Origin: Oscillospiraceae bacterium
Lineage (GTDB): Bacteria; Bacillota; Clostridia; Oscillospirales; Acutalibacteraceae
Reading direction: 5' to 3'
Length of the DNA stretch: 64,000 nt
Assembly: GCA_009779995.1 (NCBI GenBank)
Contig: WRDW01000002.1
Coordinates: forward strand, 1-64,000
Below, piece by piece: positions 2,178 to 60,028 of the stretch (position 1 is the stretch's first letter; every line of letters starts with the position of its first letter). A program made the position numbers and the translations under genes. The notes beneath the pieces are model-generated. The model was not told where the DNA came from, made no database searches, and saw only the letters and a program-made list of their open reading frames with translations.

Positions 2178-2483
2178 GTATGAACCAGATAAATAATAAC
2201 TTGCGTTGTCGCCAAAAATGTGCCATACTGGTTCCGGGACACTGCCAACACTGCAGCGCTGAGTTTTGGGCTCGCGCGTGAAACCCTGGCCCTGTGCGCA
2301 GAATCAGCGGGAAGGACTGCGACAAGACCGCCGAGGCCGGGCTTGTCGCGCGCGCTGAGGGCGATGCCGTTACAACGGGGATTGCCATCATATGTTTGTG
2401 GGGGAGATCGTGGGGGTGTATCAAAGAAAAGGAAAATGAAAAGGAAAATTAAAAAAACACTGGAAATCCCGCCGAACCTATGC

Positions 2484-2516
2484 TATACTATACTATGGTG
2501 TTATATACGCCATAGT
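2484..2516 (+). promoter_or_regulatory. putative -10 element plus operator-like inverted repeat upstream of the cysteine desulfurase
   Basis: TATACT at 2484-2489 with a weak TGGAAA 17 bp upstream, followed by ACTATGGTG-ttatata-CGCCATAGT (8/9 complementary) at 2492-2516. Confidence 0.5.
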
Positions 2517-2546
2517 ATTTTGTATTTGCGAAGGAGCCCCGCGTCC

Positions 2547-3740
2547 ATGTACGCCTATATGGATAACGCCGCCACCACCATGCTCGGCGCCGCCGCCAAG
2601 GCGGCCATGCTGCCCCTGCTGGACGAGAACTACGGCAACCCCTCCAGCCTGCACCGCTACGGCCAGCGGGCCGCCGCCGCGCTGCAAAGCGCCCGCGCGC
2701 GCGTCGCGGCGTGTCTGGGCGCCGACCCGCGGGAGATCACCTTCACCTCCGGCGGCAGCGAGGCCGACAACCAGGCCATCTTCAGTGCCGCCATGCAGGG
2801 GGCGAAGAGCAACAAGAAGCACCTCATTTCTACGAGCATCGAGCACCACGCCGTGCTGGCATATCTCAAGGGCCTGGAGAGCGAGGGTTTTACGATCACG
2901 CTGCTGCCGGTGGAGCCGGAGACGGGCCTGGTCTCTGTGCATGATCTCGAAAGCGCCCTCACGGACGGCACCTGCCTGGTGAGCGTCATGATGGCCAACA
3001 ACGAAATAGGGACAATCCAGCCTGTGGAAGAGATCGCCGGGCTATGCAGGGAGAGAAAAATCCCCTTCCACACCGACGCCGTGCAGGCCGTGGGGCATGT
3101 CCCCGTGGACGTGCGCGCCTTGGGGGCGGACATGCTCAGCCTGGCGGCGCACAAGTTCCACGGGCCCAAGGGCGCGGGCGCGCTCTATTGCCGCCGGGGG
3201 AGCCTCCCCCTGCGCCCGGTGCTGCTGGGCGGCGCGCAGGAGCGCGGCCGCCGCGCCGGCACGGAGAACCTGCCGGCGATTGTTGGAATGGCCGCGGCAC
3301 TTGAAGAAGCGATAAAAGAGTTGCCCGAAACGAGCGCGCGCATTGCCGGGTTTAGAGATCAACTGATCGAGGGCCTGTCAAACATCAGCCGCGCGCACCT
3401 CAATGGCGATAGGACGCGCCGCCTGCCGGGCAGCGTGAGCTTCTGCTTCGAGGGCCTGGAGGGGGAGTCCCTCCTGCTGCTGCTGGACGACCGGGGCATT
3501 GCGGCCTCCTCGGGCTCGGCCTGCACCTCGGGCTCCCTGAACCCCAGCCACGTGCTGCTGGCCATCGGCCGCCCGCACGAGATCGCCCACGGCTCGCTGC
3601 GCCTGAGCCTTTCGCGCTACACCACCCGGGAGGAGATAGACCACGCCCTGGCGGTCATCCCGCCGGTGGCGGAATACCTGCGGGGGATTTCGCCGGTGTG
3701 GGAGAGGATTTTGATGGAGGAGAGGAGGGAAGTTGGGTGA
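2547..3740 (+). CDS. cysteine desulfurase (NifS/IscS-like, class V aminotransferase)
   Basis: YMDNAATTMLG...NPSSLH, TFTSGGSEADNQAI, HTDAVQAVGHVPVD, LAAHKFHGPKGAGALY, SSGSACTSGSLNPSHVL motifs; start at ATG 2547. Confidence 0.93.
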   Translation: MYAYMDNAATTMLGAAAKAAMLPLLDENYGNPSSLHRYGQRAAAALQSARARVAACLGADPREITFTSGGSEADNQAIFSAAMQGAKSNKKHLISTSIEHHAVLAYLKGLESEGFTITLLPVEPETGLVSVHDLESALTDGTCLVSVMMANNEIGTIQPVEEIAGLCRERKIPFHTDAVQAVGHVPVDVRALGADMLSLAAHKFHGPKGAGALYCRRGSLPLRPVLLGGAQERGRRAGTENLPAIVGMAAALEEAIKELPETSARIAGFRDQLIEGLSNISRAHLNGDRTRRLPGSVSFCFEGLEGESLLLLLDDRGIAASSGSACTSGSLNPSHVLLAIGRPHEIAHGSLRLSLSRYTTREEIDHALAVIPPVAEYLRGISPVWERILMEERREVG

Positions 3741-3964: not shown

Positions 3965-3973
3965 CGCGCAAAA

Positions 3974-4048
3974 TGTAGGGGACGGCCTCCTGGACGTCCC
4001 TTACCTGAAAAAAACTATGCTTGGGACGTCGAGGGCGCCGTCCCCACA
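3974..4048. repeat. palindromic repeat family R2, copy 1
   Basis: TGTAGGGGACGGCCTCCTGGACGTCCC ... GGGACGTCGAGGGCGCCGTCCCCACA; related copy at 39481-39553. Confidence 0.75.
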
Positions 4049-4067: not shown

Positions 4068-4520
4068 ATGGCCATGGGATATAGCGAAAAAGTGATGGAT
4101 CACTTCATCCACCCGCGCAATGTGGGCGAGATCGAGAGCCCTGACGGCGTGGGCGAGGTGGGCAACGCCCACTGCGGCGACATCATGAAAGTCTACCTCA
4201 ATGTGGAAAATGACATCATTGTTGATGTAAAATTTAAAACCTTCGGGTGCGCCTCGGCCATCGCAACCAGCTCCATGGCCACCGAGCTCATCCGCGGCAG
4301 GCCCGTGGGCGAGGCCCTGGCCCTGACCAACAGGGCCGTGGTGGAGGCCCTGGACGGCCTGCCGCCGGTGAAGATGCACTGCTCCGTGCTGGCCGAGGAG
4401 GCCGTGAAGGCCGCCATAAAAGATTACTACGACCGCAGCGGCGTGAGCTATGATCAGGCTTTGTTCGCCGATCTGGAACACGGGGATAAGGACGCGCACG
4501 GGGATTTGGTGGAGGAGTGA
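4068..4520 (+). CDS. IscU/NifU-like Fe-S cluster assembly scaffold
   Basis: YSEKVMDHFIHPRNVGEI, GNAHCGDIMKVYL, FKTFGCASAIATSSMATELI, KMHCSVLAEEAVKAAI motifs. Confidence 0.93.
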   Translation: MAMGYSEKVMDHFIHPRNVGEIESPDGVGEVGNAHCGDIMKVYLNVENDIIVDVKFKTFGCASAIATSSMATELIRGRPVGEALALTNRAVVEALDGLPPVKMHCSVLAEEAVKAAIKDYYDRSGVSYDQALFADLEHGDKDAHGDLVEE

Positions 4521-4531
4521 GGAATGAAGAT

Positions 4532-5467
4532 ATGACCCACGCCTACATGATCCTCGCCCACCACGAGTTCCCACTGCTGGGCCGCCTGGTCTCGGCTTTG
4601 GACTATCCCTGCAACGACATCTACGTCCACATCGACAAAAAAGTGGACGACGAGCTGTTCGAGCGGATAAAGGGCGAGCTGGAAGGCACGGTCAAACAGG
4701 CAAGCATTGCTTTCACCCCGCGCGTCAATGTCGTCTGGGGCGATTTCAGTATAATTGAGGCAGAGCTGCTGCTGCTGCGCGAGGCCAGCGCGACCCATCA
4801 CGACTATTATCATTTGCTCTCCGGGGTGGACCTGCCCATCAAGCCGCACAGCGAAATACTGCGCTTTTTTGAGGAAAACGCGGGCAAGGAGTTCATCCAA
4901 GGCGTCCGCTTCCCGCCGCGCGGCCTCACGCGCTGGCGCATACGTTATTATTTCCCCCTGCAGAAGCTCGTCGGGCATAATTTTTTCGGGCCGCTGGGCC
5001 TGTTGCAATGGCTGCTGCTCCTGCCGCAGATGCTGGTAGGCGTCAACCGCCTGCGAAAGCTGCCCGGCTTATCCGGGCAGCCTTCAGAGTTCTACAAGAG
5101 CAGCAACTGGTTTTCCGCGACCCACGGTTTCGTAACCGACCTGCTGGAATTCTACGGCCGCGAGGAAAACATCCGCCACTATCGCAGGAGCATGTGCGCC
5201 GATGAAATTTTTGTGCAGATGTACGCCTTCCACAGCAAATACCGCGAGCGCATCTTCCTGCATCAGAGATACCCCGGCAGCGAAGGGCTTTTTTACAACA
5301 ACATGCGGCGCTTCGTGTTTCAAAAAGGCCTCAAGGGTTCGCCCGTCACCTACACCATGGACGACCTTGCGCGGCTCACGCAATCCCGCCAGCTGTGGGC
5401 GCGCAAGTTCAGCTATGACAAGCACCCGGAGGTCGTCGACGCCATCATGGAAAGGATCGCCCCATGA
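4532..5467 (+). CDS. GT14-like (core-2/I-branching beta-1,6-N-acetylglucosaminyltransferase family) glycosyltransferase
   Basis: MTHAYMILAHHEFPLLGRLVSALDYPCNDIYVHIDKK, HHDYYHLLSGVDLPIK, ADEIFVQMYAFHS motifs. Confidence 0.82.
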   Translation: MTHAYMILAHHEFPLLGRLVSALDYPCNDIYVHIDKKVDDELFERIKGELEGTVKQASIAFTPRVNVVWGDFSIIEAELLLLREASATHHDYYHLLSGVDLPIKPHSEILRFFEENAGKEFIQGVRFPPRGLTRWRIRYYFPLQKLVGHNFFGPLGLLQWLLLLPQMLVGVNRLRKLPGLSGQPSEFYKSSNWFSATHGFVTDLLEFYGREENIRHYRRSMCADEIFVQMYAFHSKYRERIFLHQRYPGSEGLFYNNMRRFVFQKGLKGSPVTYTMDDLARLTQSRQLWARKFSYDKHPEVVDAIMERIAP

Positions 5468-7299
5468 CCCACGCCTACATGATCCTCGCGCACCACGAGT
5501 TCCCCCTGCTGGGCCGCCTGGTCTCGGCTTTGGACTACCCCTGCAACGACATCTACGTCCACATCGACAAAAAAGTCGACGACGAGCTGTTCGCGCGGGT
5601 AAAGGGCGAGTTGGAGGGCGCTGTGAAACAGGCAAGCATTGCTTTCACCCCGCGCGTCAATGTCGTCTGGGGCGATTTCAGCATGATTGAGGCGGAGCTG
5701 CTGCTGATGCGCGAGGCCAGCGCGGTCCATCACGACTATTATCATTTGCTCTCCGGGGTGGACCTGCCCATCAAGTCCCACGGGGAGATCACGCGGTTTT
5801 TTATCGAAAACGCGGGCAAGGAGCTCGTCGGGGGCCGCGAGATCGAGCGCCGGGCGCGCGCGCGCCTGCGCTACTATTACCCTTTGCAGCGCACGGTGGG
5901 GCACCACTATCTCCGGCCGCTGGGCCTATTGCAGTGGGCGCTGCTCCTGCCGCAGATGCTGGCGGGCGTCAACCGGCTGCGGAAGCTGCCGAAGGAGATC
6001 TACAAGGGCGGCCAGTGGTTTTCCGTCACCCACGATTTTGTGGCCGGCCTGCTGGAATTCTATGGCCGCGAGGAAAACCTGAAGCCCTACCGCAAAACCC
6101 AGTGCGCCGACGAAATATGGGTGCAGATGTTCGCCTACCACAGCAAATACCGCGAGCATATCTACGAGGCGCGATGGCAGGAGTGGACTTATCCCACCAA
6201 CCTGCGTTACGTCGACTGGGCGAAAAGAGGCGCCGCCAGCCCCATGACTATATCCATGGAAAACCTGGAATGGCTGCTGAAAAGCGAATGCCTGTGGGCG
6301 CGCAAGTTCAGCTGCGAAAAGCACCCCGACGCCGTGGACGCCGTGATGGAACGAAACGCCAAGGCCCCCGAACGCCCGCTCACAAGCATCGCCGCCATGC
6401 AGGACGAAATCCTGTATCTGAAGAAGGCCACCGATACCTGCGTCCTGGCCCACAGCTACCAGGCGCGGGAGATTCTCGAAATCGCCGACGTGACCGGGGA
6501 CTCCTTCGCGCTGAGCCAGCAGGCGGCCAAGCAGCCGCAGAAGAACATGCTCGTGTGCGGCGTGCGCTTCATGGCGGAGACCGTCAAGCTGCTCGCGCCG
6601 GAAAAAAATGTGCTGCTTTGCAATTCACAGGCGGGCTGCCCCATGGCCGAGCAGTTCGACAGGGCGGCACTGGAGGAGATCAAGAGGCAATACCCGGATT
6701 CTACAGTTGTAGCCTATATCAACACGACAGCCGAGCTGAAGACCCTATGCGATGTCTGCGTCACGTCCAGCTCGGCTGTGAAAATCGTCAGGGCGCTGCC
6801 GAACGAGAATATTGTATTCATCCCGGACTGCAACCTGGGGGCCTACGTTGCCTCGCAGGTGCCCGAGAAAAATATTGTGCTTTTGCAGGGCGGCTGCCCC
6901 ATCCACGCCGCCGTGACCGCAACCGAAGCCGAGGCCGCCAAGGCCGTTCACCCGGAGGCCCTGCTGCTTGTCCACCCGGAGTGCACCCCGGAAGTTACAG
7001 CTTTGGCCGATTATGTCGGCTCCACGGCGGGGATTATGGCGTTCGCGAAGGCCTCGGACGCCAGCGAGTTCATCATAGGCACGGAGAGCAGCATCGCGGC
7101 GCATCTGCAATATGAATGCCCGGACAAGCGCTTCTATCCCCTGAGCTACAAGCTCCTGTGCCCCGACATGAAGCTCACCACGTTACCCGATGTTCTGCTG
7201 GCATTGCAGGGCAGGGGGGGCGAGGCGATAGCGCTGGACGCGTATACCCTGCGTGAGGCGCGCAAGTGCATCGATAGGATGATCGAGATGGGGGAATAG
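5464..7299 (+). CDS. nadA: GT14-like glycosyltransferase fused in frame to quinolinate synthase A (NadA)
   Basis: Continuous 611-codon ORF. About 300 N-terminal residues are paralogous to the preceding gene; from MQDEILYLKKATDTCVLAHSYQ onward it is NadA-like, with Cys in MLVCGVRFMAETVKLL, DVCVTSSSAVKIV and LVHPECTPEV. Confidence 0.85.
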   Translation: MTHAYMILAHHEFPLLGRLVSALDYPCNDIYVHIDKKVDDELFARVKGELEGAVKQASIAFTPRVNVVWGDFSMIEAELLLMREASAVHHDYYHLLSGVDLPIKSHGEITRFFIENAGKELVGGREIERRARARLRYYYPLQRTVGHHYLRPLGLLQWALLLPQMLAGVNRLRKLPKEIYKGGQWFSVTHDFVAGLLEFYGREENLKPYRKTQCADEIWVQMFAYHSKYREHIYEARWQEWTYPTNLRYVDWAKRGAASPMTISMENLEWLLKSECLWARKFSCEKHPDAVDAVMERNAKAPERPLTSIAAMQDEILYLKKATDTCVLAHSYQAREILEIADVTGDSFALSQQAAKQPQKNMLVCGVRFMAETVKLLAPEKNVLLCNSQAGCPMAEQFDRAALEEIKRQYPDSTVVAYINTTAELKTLCDVCVTSSSAVKIVRALPNENIVFIPDCNLGAYVASQVPEKNIVLLQGGCPIHAAVTATEAEAAKAVHPEALLLVHPECTPEVTALADYVGSTAGIMAFAKASDASEFIIGTESSIAAHLQYECPDKRFYPLSYKLLCPDMKLTTLPDVLLALQGRGGEAIALDAYTLREARKCIDRMIEMGE

Positions 7300-7302
7300 G
7301 AC

Positions 7303-7408
7303 GCGGCGCTTCGCGCGTGCTCCGCACTTCCCCCTCGCTTCGCGGCCCCCCTTGGGGGGCCGGTGCGAAGCACCGAGGGGGAAGTGCAGGGCACTCGCGA
7401 AGCGACGG
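7303..7408. repeat. palindromic repeat family R4, copy 1
   Basis: GCGGCGCTTCGCGCGTGCTCCGCACTTCCCCCTCG ... CGAGGGGGAAGTGCAGGGCACTCGCGAAGCGACG with inner GCCCCCCTTGGGGGGC palindrome. Confidence 0.75.
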
Positions 7409-7454: not shown

Positions 7455-9062
7455 ATGGCAATCGGCGAAAAGATCAAGAAGGCCATCGGCATCGAGGGCA
7501 ACGTGAAGGAGACCGTGCTGCCCATGATCAACTACGCCTCGAAGAACATCGGCGACGCGGCGCAGTCACAGGTCATCGGGGACCACTACCTGGCCTTCGT
7601 GACGTATGTGGAGGGGCTCTCCACGGGCACGGCCACGGTGCTCTCCTTCCTGCGCAGCATCTGGGACGCCGTGATCGACCCCTTCATCGGCTACGCGGTG
7701 GACCACACGCGCTCGCGCTTGGGCAAGCACAGGATCTGGGTTATCATCGCGGCGGCGCCCGTGTGCGCCTCCTTCGCGATGCGCTTCACCTCCTTCGGCC
7801 TATCGGGAAAGGAGGGCGCCACAAGCCAGCTGCTGGCCTACCACCTTTGCATCGGGCTGGTGTACGCCCTGTTCAACAGCATCCTGGATATCTCCCACAG
7901 CGCCATGCTGCCCACCCTGGCCCCGGGCTACTTCGAGCGCACGCAGTACATGTCCATGCAGTACATCATGAACTCCGTGGGCATGGTGCCCGCCAACCTG
8001 TTCGGCGCGGCGATGGTGGGCATCGTGAGCACGAAGGACTACGACCCCTCCATGCGCCCCACGCTGTTCAAGCTGGCCCTGGTGGTGGGCCTGGTGGGCG
8101 TGTTCCCCATCCTCTACAGCGGCATCGCCACCAAAGAGCCCAGCTCCAAAAACGACGTGTTTCCGCCGCTGAACGTGAAGGACTTCCTCCACGAATTCAA
8201 GCTTGTCCTAAAGAACCGGGCCTTCCGCCAATATTTCTCCATGACCTTCCTGTATCTCTTCGGCTCCTCGTTTTTCAGCGTATCCAAGCCCTTTTTCCTC
8301 CGGGAGGTGGCCAATCGCTGGGACCTGCGCAGCCAGCTGGACATCTACCGCGGCGGCGTGGAGATGCTGATGTTCCCCGTGAACTACGGCCTCACAAAAA
8401 AATTCGGCAAGCAGAAAAACGCGCTGATCACCCTGCCGCTGCTGTTCGTCAGCTTCTTCATCGGGATGCTTATCGCGCCCCAGGCGGCCGGGAGCCGGGC
8501 GGTGTCCGTCGTAATTATGCTCTTCGCCCGCGAAATTTTCTATATCATCGGCTACTCCGGCTACGGCTTCATGGTGAGCAACATCTACCCCGACGTCACC
8601 GACGTGGACGAGCTCATCACCGGCCGCCGCCGCGAGGCGACGATTTCCACCTTCAACTCCTTCGTGAAGACCATGACCAGCGGCTTCATGGCCTCCGTCG
8701 TCGGCATTCTGCTCGAGTGGTTCGGCGTGGCGCAGGATAGCTCGAAGGTCTTCCTGTTCGACGCACGGGCGAAGAACATCTATGGCGGCTTCACGCCCGC
8801 CTTTGGCCTGAAGGTCTCCAACGCCTTTTTGCCCGTGGTGTTCATGGGGCTCGCGCTGCTATCCCTGCGCAAATACAAGATGACCCGGCAGGACCACGAG
8901 CTGATCCGCCGGGTGATCGGGCAAAAGCACGAAACGGGCGAGGCCGGGGTGACCGACGCCGAGCGCGCCAAGCTGGAGGAGATCGCCGGGCAGCCCTGGG
9001 ACGCCATGTGGATTGGCGGCGCGGCGGTTGAGGTGGGCGAACACGCGGAGATCAGGTTCTAG
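7455..9062 (+). CDS. GPH-type (glycoside-pentoside-hexuronide:cation symporter-like) MFS transporter
   Basis: Multi-TM protein with SIWDAVIDPFIGYAVDHTRSRLGKHRIW motif. Confidence 0.85.
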   Translation: MAIGEKIKKAIGIEGNVKETVLPMINYASKNIGDAAQSQVIGDHYLAFVTYVEGLSTGTATVLSFLRSIWDAVIDPFIGYAVDHTRSRLGKHRIWVIIAAAPVCASFAMRFTSFGLSGKEGATSQLLAYHLCIGLVYALFNSILDISHSAMLPTLAPGYFERTQYMSMQYIMNSVGMVPANLFGAAMVGIVSTKDYDPSMRPTLFKLALVVGLVGVFPILYSGIATKEPSSKNDVFPPLNVKDFLHEFKLVLKNRAFRQYFSMTFLYLFGSSFFSVSKPFFLREVANRWDLRSQLDIYRGGVEMLMFPVNYGLTKKFGKQKNALITLPLLFVSFFIGMLIAPQAAGSRAVSVVIMLFAREIFYIIGYSGYGFMVSNIYPDVTDVDELITGRRREATISTFNSFVKTMTSGFMASVVGILLEWFGVAQDSSKVFLFDARAKNIYGGFTPAFGLKVSNAFLPVVFMGLALLSLRKYKMTRQDHELIRRVIGQKHETGEAGVTDAERAKLEEIAGQPWDAMWIGGAAVEVGEHAEIRF

Positions 9063-12726: not shown

Positions 12727-14850
12727 ATGAAAACGGAAAAGAAAGCAAGGCTACTGGCGATCCTCCTGGCGGTGCTCTTGGGGGCGAGCATGTTCGCGCC
12801 CCTGATGGCGCAGGCGGCCCCCCCCGACGACGGCGGCAAGCTCACCATCCACAAGTTCATCATGAAGGACCTGCGCGACGCCCTGGACCCCAACGACGGC
12901 AATGTCCTGGACGGCACGAGGCAGGCGCAGCTCGACGCGCTCATCGCTGCGGGCAAGGCGGCCCCGCTGGGCGGCGTCGTGTTCAAGGTGTATAAACTCG
13001 ACCTGTCCAGCTTCATCACGAGCACCAGCGCACCCGTGGACAACCCGAACCCAACCGACGGCCCCTGGGGGAGCCTGGGCGCGAACCCAGACTGGGAGGA
13101 CATCATCAAGGCGTTTGAAAGCGTGGCCTTCTCGCTGGACAATTACCTAGAACCCACGAAGATTGCACTGACCAGCGCCACAGGCGCCGCCGGCACCCTC
13201 TACAACTTCGCCCTGGTGATGGAAGCCGGCAAGGCCAAGGTCTTTGACGAAGTCACCACCAGCCTCACGGCCCCCGTCGGCGTGGTCACGACCAAGCAGC
13301 TGGAGAAGGGCTTCTACCTGGTGGTGGAGCAGCCCGGCCCCGTCGTGGGTAGCAACGGCTGTGTGGCCTCCATGTCCTTCCCCTTCATCGCGGCCGTACC
13401 CATGACCAACCCCACCGGCGACGGCTGGATCGAAAACGTGAACTGCTACCCGAAGAACGGCGACATCAACACCGAAAAATCGGTCGACCGCAACGCCGTG
13501 TACGTGGGCGAAAAGAAGACATGGACCATCAACGTGTCCGTGCCCCAGGACATCATGCACTACGAGCAGTTCTTCCTCACGGACGTGCTGGACGACGCCC
13601 TGAACTTCGTGCCGGGCAGCCTGAAGATCTATGCCCTGCCCGAAAAGGACGCGCTCAACAGCGCCGGCAGGATGATCCCCGTGGGCAGCGCCCCCATCCC
13701 CAACTACCGTGAGAGCCATAACGCCGCAACCAACGAGCTGATGGTGGAGTTCATCGTGGGCATCTTCGGCAAAGACTCGCTGGGCCGCGACACCGCCTCC
13801 TACACCGTGGACGGCCGCAACTGGCTGTTCGGCGACTTCAACGGCGACGGCAAAATTGCCGCCGAAGACAACGAATTCGTCATCAAATACATCCGCTTCG
13901 AGTTCGAGACCACGGTCAACGAGAAGATCCTCGACCGCCTGCATGCGTCCTATGCGCTGAACAATAAAGCGGACATCAACTTCAGGCACAGGTACGACAA
14001 CACGGGCCGCAAGCGCGAGAGCAACGGGATCGATCTCCATACAGCGGCGCTGATCTTCAACAAAATCAACGCGCACACCGGCGCGCAGCTCCCCGGCGCC
14101 GGCTTCCAGATCGCCACCACCGACGCCAAGGCCAGGGCGGGCCAGTTCCTGCGCAGGGTGCAGCACTGGGTATGCCTCGGCAAAACCCTGGCAGGGGCGG
14201 AGATCTACAGGCAGGTGTGGTCTATCCTTGACGTCGACGACGCGAACGGCTACACCTCCAGCGTCGGCTCCTTCACCTTCACCGGCGGCGTACCGAACGC
14301 CGATGGCACTCTGCCGGCAGGCGTCACCGCCGTACCCACCGCCGCGCTCACCTACGCCGCCAACGGCATCGTCTGGGAGGAGTTCAGCGTTCTGCACGAC
14401 GCCGACCCGGCGTCCACCTCCGTGGCCCAGGATTCCCTCCTCCCCCCGACGATGAAGAACGACTACAACTTCACCGGCTGGCCGGACTTCACCGCCAAGG
14501 CGGCGAACAAGGCCATCGTGCGCTTCGAGGGCATCAAGGAGTTCAACGGCAATTTCACCGACCCGAAGGGTAACGAGGACTACCGCTCCTACTACATCGT
14601 GGAGACCAAGGCCCCCGAAAGCTTCAACCTGCTGCTTGACCCGATCCGCATCACCTACAGCGCCACCGTCTCCACCGAGGAAAACTGGTACACCCTGGAC
14701 GGCGGCGCAGTGAACAACACCAACACCTTCATCCTGCCCCGCACCGGCGGCACCGGCACCATCCTGTTCACGGCCGGCGGCATCTCGCTGATCGGCGTGG
14801 CGGCTGTGTTGCTCCTGCTGGGCGCGAGAAGAAAAAAAGCAAAAGGCTGA
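12727..14850 (+). CDS. LPxTG-anchored pilin/isopeptide-forming surface protein (SpaA-like), with a dockerin-like calcium-loop motif
   Basis: Signal peptide; C-terminal ILPRTGGTGTILFTAGGISLIGVAAVLLLLGARRKKAKG; EKSVDRNAVYVGEKKTWTINVSVPQDI; internal GDFNGDGKIAAEDNEFVIKYIR. Confidence 0.85.
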   Translation: MKTEKKARLLAILLAVLLGASMFAPLMAQAAPPDDGGKLTIHKFIMKDLRDALDPNDGNVLDGTRQAQLDALIAAGKAAPLGGVVFKVYKLDLSSFITSTSAPVDNPNPTDGPWGSLGANPDWEDIIKAFESVAFSLDNYLEPTKIALTSATGAAGTLYNFALVMEAGKAKVFDEVTTSLTAPVGVVTTKQLEKGFYLVVEQPGPVVGSNGCVASMSFPFIAAVPMTNPTGDGWIENVNCYPKNGDINTEKSVDRNAVYVGEKKTWTINVSVPQDIMHYEQFFLTDVLDDALNFVPGSLKIYALPEKDALNSAGRMIPVGSAPIPNYRESHNAATNELMVEFIVGIFGKDSLGRDTASYTVDGRNWLFGDFNGDGKIAAEDNEFVIKYIRFEFETTVNEKILDRLHASYALNNKADINFRHRYDNTGRKRESNGIDLHTAALIFNKINAHTGAQLPGAGFQIATTDAKARAGQFLRRVQHWVCLGKTLAGAEIYRQVWSILDVDDANGYTSSVGSFTFTGGVPNADGTLPAGVTAVPTAALTYAANGIVWEEFSVLHDADPASTSVAQDSLLPPTMKNDYNFTGWPDFTAKAANKAIVRFEGIKEFNGNFTDPKGNEDYRSYYIVETKAPESFNLLLDPIRITYSATVSTEENWYTLDGGAVNNTNTFILPRTGGTGTILFTAGGISLIGVAAVLLLLGARRKKAKG

Positions 14851-17051: not shown

Positions 17052-17082
17052 GCGCGGTGCGGTATGTATCGCACGAGGGGCG

Positions 17083-17288
17083 CGGCGCTTCGCGCGTGCT
17101 CCGCACAACCACCCCGGCCTGCGGGCCACCCCTCCACGGAGGGGAATTGGGGATTAGGCGCAAGCGTCATTTTCGGTTTTTGACTATGTGCTTGCACAAC
17201 CCGTGTATAGTTAAGCCCCCATTCCCCTCCGTGGAGGGGTGCCCCCGCAGGGGCGGGGTGGTTGTGCTGAGCACTCGCGAAGCGACGG
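17083..17288. repeat. palindromic repeat family R4, copy 2 (long nested inverted repeat)
   Basis: GCGGCGCTTCGCGCGTGCTCCGCACAACCACCCC ... GGGGTGGTTGTGCTGAGCACTCGCGAAGCGACG with inner CCCCTCCACGGAGGGGAAT / ATTCCCCTCCGTGGAGGGG. Confidence 0.8.
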
Positions 17289-17339
17289 CGATTCAGGCAA
17301 CCCTTCCTTGATATTGCATACAGAAAGAAGGCCCGGCCC

Positions 17340-23913: not shown

Positions 23914-24133
23914 CATCGACGGGCACGAAGAGTGCCGCCTGCGGCGGCAGTGCTCCGCACCACCCCCTCGGTGCTTCGCACCGGCCCCCCAAGGGGAGCA
24001 TCCTGACGAGGCGGTAGGTTTCCCTCGCGACGAGAAGAAAACTATCCGAACCGTCAAAAGTCCCCCCTTGGGGGGACGCGAAGCGGGGGTGGTGCGGAGC
24101 ACGCGCGAAGCGCCGCCTTCGTGGACGTCGATG
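23914..24133. repeat. palindromic repeat family R4, copy 3 (long nested inverted repeat)
   Basis: CATCGACGGGCACGAAG ... AGTGCTCCGCACCACCCCC ... GGGGGTGGTGCGGAGCACGCGCGAAGCGCCGCCTTCGTGGACGTCGATG. Confidence 0.8.
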
Positions 24134-39480: not shown

Positions 39481-39553
39481 TGTAGGGGACGGCCTCCCGG
39501 ACGTCCCCGGCGGGAACGATTCGCTCGGGGCGTCGAGGACGCCGCCCCCTACA
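39481..39553. repeat. palindromic repeat family R2, copy 2
   Basis: TGTAGGGGACGGCCTCCCGGACGTCCCC ... GGGGCGTCGAGGACGCCGCCCCCTACA. Confidence 0.8.
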
Positions 39554-39659
39554 TGCTTTGCGCCCTACTAGTCTAAACTTTTTCACGCAAAAAAGCAAGC
39601 CCAATTTTGGCGCTTTTGTAAATTCCGCGTGAACATACAATAAATTATGATACGCCCCC

Positions 39660-55373: not shown

Positions 55374-56103
55374 GGACACCCCCCGCGCCTTCGCCGCTTC
55401 CCCCCTCGATCCACCCCAACGAATCTGCGGATTTGTCGGGGGCCCCGGAAGCGAGGGGGGCCTGGTTCAGCTGTTCCATGCGCACTTCTCTTTGGGCATT
55501 GGCTTTCACAAACGCCGCGTCGTGGCTGATGAGCAGCACGGAAATCCCGTCGCGCAACACCTCCCGTATCACACCGGCGAGGATCGCTTTGCGGCGGGCG
55601 TCCAGGCCGGTGGTGGGCTCGTCGAGGACGAGGGCTTCGGGCTTGTTCAGCAGCAGCCCGCAGATGGCCAGGCGCTGCTGCTCCCCCCGGCTGAGGGTCA
55701 GCACGCTGCGCCGCGCGAGCGAATCCAGCTCGAAGCGGGCGAGCAGCGCCATGGCCCGCGCTTCGGCCTCCCCCGGAGAGATGCCCTGCAATTCCTGCGT
55801 AAACATCAGGTCTTCCAGCACCGTCGGCGCGAAGAGCTGCCGCGCGGGCTCCTGGAAGAGATAGCCGATGCGCTGCCCGCGCCGCCCGAGGCTCCACTTC
55901 GCGGTGTCCTCGCCGTCGAAGAGCACGGCCCCGCCCTGCGGCTTCAGCAGGCCGCACAGCAGCTTGCCCAGGGTGGTTTTCCCGCTGCCGTTGGACCCTG
56001 TGAGTGCGGCGCACGCGCCCGGCCCCATAGAAAAATCCACCCCGCGCAAGGAAAAGCCTGTGCCGGGGTAGGTGAATGTTAGGTTTTTGGTTTCGATGGT
56101 CAA
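55363..56103 (-). CDS. ECF transporter ATP-binding protein
   Basis: GSNGSGKTTLGKLLCGLLKPQGG, LSRGEQQRLAI, LVLDEPTTGLDARRK, LISHD. Confidence 0.9.
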   Translation of the reverse strand: MTIETKNLTFTYPGTGFSLRGVDFSMGPGACAALTGSNGSGKTTLGKLLCGLLKPQGGAVLFDGEDTAKWSLGRRGQRIGYLFQEPARQLFAPTVLEDLMFTQELQGISPGEAEARAMALLARFELDSLARRSVLTLSRGEQQRLAICGLLLNKPEALVLDEPTTGLDARRKAILAGVIREVLRDGISVLLISHDAAFVKANAQREVRMEQLNQAPLASGAPDKSADSLGWIEGGSGEGAGGVHEN

Positions 56104-57632
56104 GCCTGGTTCCCCATCAATTCCTCCAAAATCAGCATGGCCACGCAGGAGAGCGAGCGCAGCTCGGCCACCTCCCTCGTGACTGCGCAGCCCTTCAGCT
56201 CCCCGTATAAAGCGCGCATCTCCCGCGCCGCAGCCGGCAGGCGTTCCCTGTCCGGGAAGACAAAAAAGGCCTCCTGCATGGCGGACTGGATTTGCTTGCG
56301 GCAGTTGACAGTTGACAGTTGACAGTTGACAGTTGACGGTTGCGCGAGCGGCTTCTCTATCAGAAAACTGTCAACTGTCAACTGTAAACTGTCAACTAGT
56401 ATGTCCTCCGCCGCCCGCCTTCCGAACACGAGCGCCTCTGGCAGGGAGTTGCTGGCCAGGCGGTTGCCGCCGTGCAGGCCCGTATGGGCGCACTCCCCGG
56501 CGGCGTAGAGCCCCGGGATGCTCGTGCGGCTGTGGAGGTCCACGTGCACGCCGCCCATGAGGTAGTGCTGGCAGGGGTACACCGGGATGAGGTCGGCGGC
56601 CATGTCGATCCCCCGGGCCTTGCAGGCGGCGAAGATGCCGGGGAACCGGTTCTCGATGAAACCGCGCTCTTTGTGGCGGATGTCGAGATAGAATTTGTCT
56701 CCGCCAGGGCCGTTGGCGGCGCCTATGCGCTTTTGTTCCTGAATGATTGCCCTGGAGACGACATCGCGCGGGGCGAGCTCCAGCCGGGGGTCGTACAGGT
56801 GCATGAAGCGCTCCTCATGGCAGTTGAGAAGATAGGCCCCCTCGCCGCGCACGGCCTCGCTGATGAGGAACTGCTCCTGCTCGCCGGGGGCGTTGAAGGC
56901 CGTGGGGTGGAACTGCACGAGGCTGATGTCCCTGATTTCCGCCCCCAGCTCGTGGGCGATGCGTATGCCGTCCCCGGTGGAGACCGCCGGGTTTGTCGTG
57001 TGCCGGTAGACCTGCCCGATGCCCCCCGTGGCCAGCAGCAGGTACCGGCAGGCGAAGCGCGCGGGGGCCTCGCCCACCAGGGCGTCAATTGTGAAAATAT
57101 CGCCGATCTTTTCGGCGGTGTAGGCCGTGGCCTCCAGCAGGGCGACGTTTGGAAGCGCGCGCACGTGGGGAAGGAGCTTGTCCACCATCTCCCTGCCCGT
57201 GCTGTCGGCGTGGTGCACGATGCGCCTGCGGCTGTGCCCGCCCTCCAGGGTCTTGGCGAGGTCGCCGCCGGGCGTGCGGTCGAACTCCACGCCCAGGGCC
57301 ATCACCCGGCGCACGTCCTCGGGCCCCTCGCGCACGAGGGTCTCCACGGCTTCCACGTCGTTGATATAGTTCCCCGCAGCCAGGGTGTCCTCCCGGTGCA
57401 GGGCGAAGCTGTCGTCGTCCGTTGTTCCGTGGACAGTGTCCTCCTCCAGCACGGCGGCCACGCCCCCCTGCGCCAGCGAGCTGCCGGAGACGTCCGGCGC
57501 CTGCTTGCTGAGCATGAGGACGGTCAACGGCTTTTCATTTTCCCCGCTGTGCAGGCACAGCGCGGCATAGAGCCCCGCCAGCCCGCTGCCGAGGATGATC
57601 ACGTCATAGGTTGTCTTCTCGGGAATGTTCAT
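56100..57632 (-). CDS. nadB: L-aspartate oxidase
   Basis: DVIILGSGLAGLYAAL, SSLAQGGVAAV, GGHSRRRIVHHADSTGREMVDKL, LATGGIGQVYRHTTNPAVSTGDGI, GECAHTGLHGGNRLASNSLPEALVFGRRAA. Confidence 0.95.
   Translation of the reverse strand: MNIPEKTTYDVIILGSGLAGLYAALCLHSGENEKPLTVLMLSKQAPDVSGSSLAQGGVAAVLEEDTVHGTTDDDSFALHREDTLAAGNYINDVEAVETLVREGPEDVRRVMALGVEFDRTPGGDLAKTLEGGHSRRRIVHHADSTGREMVDKLLPHVRALPNVALLEATAYTAEKIGDIFTIDALVGEAPARFACRYLLLATGGIGQVYRHTTNPAVSTGDGIRIAHELGAEIRDISLVQFHPTAFNAPGEQEQFLISEAVRGEGAYLLNCHEERFMHLYDPRLELAPRDVVSRAIIQEQKRIGAANGPGGDKFYLDIRHKERGFIENRFPGIFAACKARGIDMAADLIPVYPCQHYLMGGVHVDLHSRTSIPGLYAAGECAHTGLHGGNRLASNSLPEALVFGRRAAEDILVDSLQLTVDSFLIEKPLAQPSTVNCQLSTVNCRKQIQSAMQEAFFVFPDRERLPAAAREMRALYGELKGCAVTREVAELRSLSCVAMLILEELMGNQA
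56302..56399. repeat. in-frame palindromic tandem repeat inside nadB
   Basis: Array of CAGTTGA units (56302-56342) and its inverted counterpart ACTGTCA units (56364-56399). Confidence 0.9.
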
Positions 57633-57676
57633 GTGCTTATTATATACTCTTTTTGGGGGAAATGCAAATTGTTTTT

Positions 57677-60028
57677 TCACATCCCCCAAATCCCCTTGGC
57701 ATATTCCAGCACCGCCCTATCCGCCGCGAAACGCCCCGCGCCGCTGATGTTCATCAGGCTCATACGATTCCATTGCCGCGGGTCTTGATAGAGCTCGCAG
57801 GCCGTCTGCTGGGCGAAGCGATAGTCCGCGAAATCGGCCAGCACCATGTAGGGGTCCCAGTGGACGGTATTCCAGATTTCGCGGAACTCCTTCCCGGCCA
57901 CGCCCTGGTTGATAAAATCGATCACCCGGCGCAGCTCGGCGTTGTTCTGGTAGTAATCCATAGGTACGTAGCCGGGGCGCAGGCGTTTGACCTCCTCGGC
58001 GCGCAGGCCGAACAGCAGGATATTTTCCTCGCCCGCGGCCTCGAGGATTTCTACATTTGCGCCGTCCAGGGTGCCTATCGTGACGGCCCCGTTCATCATG
58101 AGCTTCATGTTGCCCGTTCCGCTGGCCTCGGTGCTGGCCAGGCTGATCTGCTCGCTGAGCTGCGCGGCGGGCACGAGCTGCTCGGCCATGGTGACGCTGT
58201 AGTTCTCCAGGAAACGCACCTGTAAACGCCCGTTTACGTCGGGATCATGATTGATTAGTTCGCCCAGGGCCGAAATAAATCGTATGATCTGCTTGGCGAT
58301 GAAGTAGCCCGGAGCGGCCTTGGCCGCGAACAGCCAGATGTGCGGCTGCACAAAATGCGCCGGGTCGTCTTTGAGGGCGAGGTATTCGGCCAGAATCGAA
58401 AAGGCGTTCAGGTGCTGGCGCTTGTACTCGTGCAGGCGCTTGATCTGCACGTCCAGCAGGCTCTCCGGGTCAATCACTATATTGCTTTGCCTTTTCAGGC
58501 GCTGTGCGAGCTCCCTCTTGTTCTCGAGCTTGATTTGCCCCAGGGCGTTGAGCACCTGAACGTCGTCGGCATATTTGCGCAGCTTTAGCAGCTCTTCGCC
58601 GTCATATATGAACTGATCTCCAATCAATTCTTTCAGGAGAGCGCTCAGTCTTGGATTTGCCTGGCACAGCCACCTGCGATGGGCAATCCCATTGGTGACG
58701 TTGCCGAATTTCCCGGGAAACACGGCGACGAAATCCGCGAAGAGCTCTTTTTTGATGAGCTCGCTGTGGAGGGCCGACACCCCGTTGACGCTGTGGCAGG
58801 CCGCGCAGCAGAGATTCGCCATGTATATCTTGCCGTCATGAATGACGGCTGTACTATGGGTTTTATTTTCGAAGCGATTGTCTATTTCTCTGATGATCTG
58901 CCAGATGCGCGGCAAAAGGCGTTTCACCAGGTCCTCCGGCCATTTCTCCAGGGCCTCGGGCAGCATGGTGTGGTTGGTGTACGCGAACGTGCGCGCGCAA
59001 ATGCCCCAGGCCGCCTCCCAGCCGTAGCCGCACTCGTCCAGCAGCAGGCGCATGAGTTCGGGAATCGCCATGGTGGGATGGGTATCGTTGATATGGATCG
59101 CCGCGCAGTCCGGCAGGGTGTCGGCGTTGCGGTGCTCGCGCAGGTGCCTGTGGACAATCTCCTGCATCGTGGCCGATACCAGGAAATATTGCTGGCGCAG
59201 GCGCAGGGCTTTCCCCTCGGGGTGGTCGTCGGTGGGGTAGAGGCCCTTGGAGATCATCTCGGCCATGGCGTTCTCCTCCACCGAGGCGAGGTAATCCCCC
59301 CGGATGAAGCTCTGCATGTCGATGTCCTGTTTTTTGGCGCTCCACAGGCGCAGGCGGCTGACGCCGACGCCGCCCATACCCGCCACCATCATGTCGAAGG
59401 GCACCGCCGTGACGGTCTTCGCGCCTACGAGCTGTACCTGGTGGTAGCCGTCCACCCAGCTCTCCTCCACCTGCCCCTCGAAGCGCACCGTCCGCGCCTG
59501 CTCCTCGTGTTCAACGAGCCACACCTTGCCGCCGGGCAGCCAGAAGTCCGGCAGCTCGCTCTGCCAGCCGTCGATGAGCTTCTGCTGGAAGATGCCGAAC
59601 TCGTACAAAATCGAGTAGCCCGTGGCGGGAATGCCCTGCGTGGCCAGGGCTTCGAGGTAGCAGGCCGCCAGGCGGCCCAGGCCGCCGTTGCCGAGGCCGG
59701 GGTCGGGCTCGCAGCCGTAGAGCTTTTCCAGCTTCACGCCGAAATCGGCCAGGGCCTCCCCGGCGAGCTGCGTCAACCCCAGGCTGAACAGCGCGGCCTT
59801 CAGCGAGCGGCCCATCAAAAACTCCATGCTGAGATAATATACTCTTTTGCGCTCGCGCGTATTTTCGGAAAATTCCGCGCGCATCCCGCCCAGCGCGTCA
59901 CGCAATATGCCCGCCAGGGCCTTGTAGTAGTGCGTATTGTCGGCGTCACGCGGCGTCACGCCCAGGTAGCGGCTCAGCCGTGTGGCCAGCTGCTCCTTGA
60001 GTTCCTGTTTGCTTTGAGGCAGTTGCAT
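57677..60028 (-). CDS. glycogen/starch/alpha-glucan phosphorylase
   Basis: VYYLSMEFLMGRSLKAALFSLG, GNGGLGRLAACYLEALATQGIPATGYSI, HINDTHPTMAIPELMRLL, EASGTGNMKLMMNGAVTIGTLDGANVEI. Confidence 0.96.
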   Translation of the reverse strand: MQLPQSKQELKEQLATRLSRYLGVTPRDADNTHYYKALAGILRDALGGMRAEFSENTRERKRVYYLSMEFLMGRSLKAALFSLGLTQLAGEALADFGVKLEKLYGCEPDPGLGNGGLGRLAACYLEALATQGIPATGYSILYEFGIFQQKLIDGWQSELPDFWLPGGKVWLVEHEEQARTVRFEGQVEESWVDGYHQVQLVGAKTVTAVPFDMMVAGMGGVGVSRLRLWSAKKQDIDMQSFIRGDYLASVEENAMAEMISKGLYPTDDHPEGKALRLRQQYFLVSATMQEIVHRHLREHRNADTLPDCAAIHINDTHPTMAIPELMRLLLDECGYGWEAAWGICARTFAYTNHTMLPEALEKWPEDLVKRLLPRIWQIIREIDNRFENKTHSTAVIHDGKIYMANLCCAACHSVNGVSALHSELIKKELFADFVAVFPGKFGNVTNGIAHRRWLCQANPRLSALLKELIGDQFIYDGEELLKLRKYADDVQVLNALGQIKLENKRELAQRLKRQSNIVIDPESLLDVQIKRLHEYKRQHLNAFSILAEYLALKDDPAHFVQPHIWLFAAKAAPGYFIAKQIIRFISALGELINHDPDVNGRLQVRFLENYSVTMAEQLVPAAQLSEQISLASTEASGTGNMKLMMNGAVTIGTLDGANVEILEAAGEENILLFGLRAEEVKRLRPGYVPMDYYQNNAELRRVIDFINQGVAGKEFREIWNTVHWDPYMVLADFADYRFAQQTACELYQDPRQWNRMSLMNISGAGRFAADRAVLEYAKGIWGM

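Follow-up and report, generated by a model that had tools for sequence, protein, structure and literature searches.

A GT14 glycosyltransferase joined in frame to quinolinate synthase in an Oscillospiraceae genome: most probably a recent gene accident private to one species

The window analysed here – 64,000 nucleotides, positions 1-64,000 of contig WRDW01000002.1 (71.9 kb) – belongs to the MAG of an Oscillospiraceae bacterium (GCA_009779995.1; 1.79 Mb in 64 contigs, 66%-complete), the named relatives of which are uncultured Clostridia and Oscillospiraceae-type bacteria, chiefly from guts and rumen. Its forward strand carries an apparent operon in which an iscS-like gene, a nifU-like gene and a glycosyltransferase gene (GT14a) are followed by a second glycosyltransferase gene that runs on, in frame, into nadA (GT14b::nadA), and then by an MFS transporter gene (Table 1). 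A serine-recombinase-like ORF, judged from sequence, lies upstream of the operon (870-2177). The intergenic space between iscS and nifU holds an inverted-repeat element (3966-4045) with a related copy at 39481-39563, and a palindromic intergenic repeat (7304-7407) stands directly after the fused gene; copies related to the latter occur near 17081-17133, 17264-17294, 23949-23999 and 24062-24116, and it looks like a dispersed REP/MITE-like element. Further downstream, 12727-14850 encodes a pilin-like surface protein with a SpaA fold and an LPXTG anchor.

Table 1. Features of the window, with the basis on which each was assigned.
Feature	Position	Strand	Basis
IscS/NifS-like cysteine desulfurase, true start inside listed ORF	2220..3740	+	homology and synteny, named from sequence
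NifU/IscU-like Fe-S scaffold, same apparent operon	4068..4520	+	homology and synteny, named from sequence
GT14a, tandem paralog of GT14b	4532..5467	+	homology; 71% aa identity to GT14b
GT14b::nadA fused gene, 611 aa	5464..7299	+	single ORF, Pfam Branch and NadA, two confidently modelled domains
GT14 (Core-2/I-branching) domain, residues 1-300	5464..6363	+	Pfam PF02485, alignment with 13 homologues, Foldseek
Linker, residues ~301-308	6364..6387	+	coil and lower pLDDT (63) in model
ACA where relatives have the nadA start codon, Shine-Dalgarno upstream also missing	6382..6384	+	ungapped alignment; starts in ~110 loci; SD energy
NadA (quinolinate synthase) domain	6388..7299	+	PF02445, NCBIfam, PDB alignment, Foldseek, dN/dS
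Internal ATG, Met312, without Shine-Dalgarno	6397..6399	+	aligned with initial Met of T. maritima NadA
MFS_2 sugar transporter	7455..9062	+	Pfam PF13347; synteny, follows nadA in nearest relative too
NadB-like FAD protein	56100..57689	-	TIGR00551 426 bits, below cut-off 452.75

The fused gene reads from ATG to TAG without an internal stop, and both of the domains that a preliminary description had placed in one frame of 611 codons are found there by Pfam. Where GT14a terminates (...VDAIMERIAP*) the fused copy continues (...VDAVMERNAKAPERPLTSIAAMQDE), and comparison of the two bears out the earlier claim that the junction (...ERNAKAPERPLTSIAAMQDE...) falls at the position of the upstream paralog's stop. 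It lies after GT14 homology ends and before NadA homology begins, which makes a chimeric join unlikely. Codon-position GC, GC3 included, is unbroken over the junction, and stops flank it on both sides in one alternative frame. That two domains, each complete and significant by HMM, share a frame, with codon-position GC continuous over the junction, takes the fused ORF beyond chance.

A critical question is whether two separate genes could have been made into such an ORF by an erroneous indel or by chimeric assembly of the contig. The fusion is known from a single MAG, and the tandem GT14 copies, with ~94% identity across the first 300 bases of each (4532-4831 and 5464-5763; the remainder is far less alike), could confuse assembly upstream of the junction. 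That repeat is ~600 bases away from the junction, however, and neither GC3 nor the pattern of codon-position GC and other-frame stops gives any sign of a frameshift. Moreover, a chimera would have had to join the two genes in the right frame and only a few codons from the limits of both domains, and the loss of both the nadA start and its Shine-Dalgarno (below) goes beyond what a single indel error explains. An artefact is in our estimation quite improbable.

The NadA half matches PF02445 at residues 315-608 (profile positions 2-295 of 295; 367 bits, cut-off 27) and exceeds the cut-offs of both NCBIfam NadA equivalogs, TIGR00550 and NF006878. Cys392, Cys478 and Cys566 (codons 6637, 6895 and 7159) align with cysteines of Thermotoga maritima NadA, in agreement with the three cluster ligands that had been proposed for this half; from what is known of the family we take them to ligate the [4Fe-4S] cluster. 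Between the window and its nearest relative NadA dN/dS is 0.15 (0.14-0.18 among unfused relatives), a value that averages over the whole branch and leaves the fusion undated, most of the divergence possibly predating it. The ratio suggests that the NadA half remains under purifying selection and supports a still-working NadA. The fused gene provides the sole NadA match in the 66%-complete assembly, the missing part of which could hold a second nadA. A NadB-like protein is encoded elsewhere in the window and NadC (PF01729) on a different contig (C6); together with NadA these would complete the de novo route to NAD.

The GT14 half matches PF02485 (Branch) at residues 4-262 (profile positions 2-236 of 250; 62.5 bits, cut-off 23.4). 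Its Glu217, presumably the counterpart of the catalytic Glu of C2GnT-L, is conserved in at least 90% of GT14 rows in an alignment with 13 homologues. Only two GT14 matches occur in the genome, GT14a and GT14b, and the stop of the former (TGA) and the start of the fused gene (ATG) overlap as ATGA (5464-5467). The likeness of the two at their 5′ ends points to a recent duplication or gene conversion of that part, the duplicate perhaps being a mosaic. In a tree of GT14 domains GT14a, GT14b and the GT14 of the nearest relative cluster together (support 100/99), the closest pair among the three not being separated; pairwise dN/dS values of 0.36-0.53 indicate that GT14 evolves faster than NadA.

An AlphaFold2 model of the fusion, built from 13 GT14 rows and four NadA rows (a model from one NadA row gave a poor NadA half and was replaced), has a mean pLDDT of 90.2, with high confidence in both halves. 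Confidence falls at the junction (mean 63 over residues 301-310), where in the model ~8 residues part the last GT14 helix (288-300) from the first NadA helix (309-322); pTM is 0.57, and the placement of the halves relative to one another is not to be taken from the model. Foldseek comparison with NadA crystal structures, among them that of the Thermotoga enzyme, gave a TM-score of 0.95 (target-normalised) to 6f48, with an rmsd of 1.6. The GT14 half matched C2GnT-L (3otk; E 1.5e-18, and 1.3e-16 in a second run) and xylosyltransferase 1. Like these enzymes the fusion has a GT-A fold, contained in its first 300 residues; unlike them it is a bacterial sequence, at ~20% identity, with NadA as a C-terminal domain.

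Further insight comes from the arrangement of nadA in other genomes, for which one genome per species was used. Each of 13 other genomes of the genus has a NadA match – in one (G004) a fragment only, residues 520-610 – and none has the fusion. Across ~110 related loci NadA is separate, begins at a near-constant position with its own ATG, GTG or TTG, and often has a purine-rich Shine-Dalgarno upstream. No GT14–NadA fusion was seen among the matches listed for 392 class-level genomes, and a scan of viral contigs found no relatives. One apparent second case, an 832-codon frame flagged in genome G503, was ruled out: nadA and nadB share a frame there, with a stop between them. The search for the same fusion in related genomes, which the preliminary description had called for, found no second fusion in the congeners, in the ~110 loci or among the listed class-level matches. 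That description would have given up the fusion if relatives had separate genes and ribosome profiling showed initiation at 6397; the separate genes are there, but by themselves they are insufficient to refute it, because the window lacks the cognate nadA start and Shine-Dalgarno.

The relatives also reveal the setting into which the glycosyltransferases came. In 14 of 111 locus records checked for upstream genes (some represent the same place twice) nifU is encoded on the strand of nadA and within 2.5 kb upstream of it, in many cases no more than 100 bases away. The stand-alone NadAs of iscS-nifU-nadA operons (L004, L007, L139, L089 and L091) are of the same family as the fused domain, at ~64-74% identity, with the same upstream neighbours; they differ in that nadA stands alone there, with a start of its own that a Shine-Dalgarno often precedes. 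Among the 111 records GT14 stands within that distance upstream of nadA only in the nearest relative, Co191P4bin15 (genome G010, locus L032), whose NadA is 81% identical to that of the window and which shares the order iscS-nifU-GT14-...-nadA-MFS. It differs in that its GT14 is a separate gene and its nadA has its own start and Shine-Dalgarno. This GT14 (954-2378 of that locus) bears a ~165-residue C-terminal extension, in which there is no Pfam match; between it and nadA lies a pair (2404-3055) encoding an MntA-like nucleotidyltransferase and a HepT-like RNase.

The two loci also differ at the nadA boundary. In the relative nadA begins CAGGAGGTCCGCCC ATG ACC ATC GCC, and the HepT stop overlaps that start as ATGA; at the same position the window reads CGCCCG CTC ACA AGC ATC GCC. 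On an ungapped alignment ACA (6382) now stands in the place of the start ATG, which may have been lost by substitution; on a gapped alternative 10 bases would have taken the place of a 6-base ATGACC, and this net gain (+4) would likewise bring an ATGA-overlapped gene pair into one frame, and we infer that the ancestral GT14 and nadA genes overlapped in just this way. The sequence does not tell these two routes apart. Loss of the start codon and Shine-Dalgarno would leave NadA to be translated as a C-terminal domain, and one polypeptide from 5464 is the simplest reading.

Fusion of the DNA need not mean that NadA is made only in fused form. Internal initiation at ATG 6397, or at GTG 6343/ATG 6346, could yield a NadA of ordinary length, either as well as the fused protein or as the main product. 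Starts of this kind that are independent of a Shine-Dalgarno exist, and since Met312 aligns with the initial Met of the T. maritima enzyme, a product begun at 6397 would be a complete NadA. But the predicted Shine-Dalgarno energy is only -1.4 kcal/mol at 6397 – which upholds the earlier observation that no clear site precedes this ATG – and -3.0 at 6343/6346, against -8.2 to -10.0 kcal/mol for nifU, GT14a, GT14b and the MFS gene. Nor was a promoter-like site found just upstream, or anywhere on the + strand between 4233 and 7720. Relatives without the fusion, moreover, also have a Met at this position (e.g. MQDEI), and hence it did not arise anew as a start. We regard separate production of NadA as unlikely.

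The account that we favour, and consider probable, is of a real fusion that arose by entry of GT14 into an operon and a subsequent change at a gene boundary, with NadA now made only as a C-terminal domain and no functional cooperation between the halves. GT14 genes inserted into a conserved iscS-nifU-nadA operon, as synteny shows. A small boundary change would then have removed the stop of the last GT14 together with the start and Shine-Dalgarno of nadA; these are absent from the window, whichever route led there. NadA would thereafter have been translated only as the C-terminal part of a GT14–NadA protein begun at 5464, its gene probably coupled in translation to GT14a through their ATGA overlap. 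The NadA half is predicted still to provide the quinolinate synthase step of the de novo route to NAD, and the GT14 half probably retains its own predicted activity, the two being tethered by a linker of ~8 residues and presumably not cooperating. We infer that the fused protein is made and that NadA is active within it.

A more ambitious interpretation would see the fusion as a selected bifunctional protein, in which GT14 activity is coupled to NAD synthesis physically or quantitatively, for instance by fixed stoichiometry or localisation. Both domains appear intact, and elsewhere NadA does have a useful N-terminal partner: in plant SufE3 (At5g50210) SufE, a sulfur transferase required for NadA activity, precedes NadA in one protein (PMC5890173). 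The window resembles that case in having NadA as the C-terminal domain and a link to Fe-S assembly, through the cysteine desulfurase and scaffold genes of the same apparent operon; it differs in that the partner of NadA here, a glycosyltransferase, is not known to have any connection with Fe-S or NAD. The N-terminal half has no Pfam match to SufE, its domain being GT14. Selection for two linked functions is opposed by the fact that no relative shares the fusion, that no substrate common to the two reactions is known, and that in the one relative whose operon also contains GT14 the two genes are separate and a toxin-antitoxin-like pair stands between them. We consider a selected bifunctional enzyme very improbable. 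The corresponding broader proposition, that NAD synthesis is tied physically or translationally to a polysaccharide- or surface-branching glycosyltransferase in a so far undescribed coupling, strikes us as just as far-fetched, and nothing shows that the GT14 and NadA activities cooperate.

The fusion is so far known in one species and one MAG assembly. That every relative lacks the GT14–NadA join speaks against an association of long standing or broad use, and makes a recent gene accident, private to this species and near-neutral, the most likely origin, in preference to a new kind of enzyme system. We found no GT14–NadA fusion in the open-access papers searched: the domain architecture is new, although NadA fusions as such are already known. 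A fusion confined to a single species should not be read as a functional link, and the name given to the ORF in annotation should include both domains. The wider significance of the locus is as a traceable case in which a housekeeping enzyme is taken into an unrelated neighbouring protein as its C-terminal part: other genes insert into the enzyme's operon, and later the start of the enzyme's own gene is lost. NadA, if still active here, tolerates an N-terminal partner of 300 residues.
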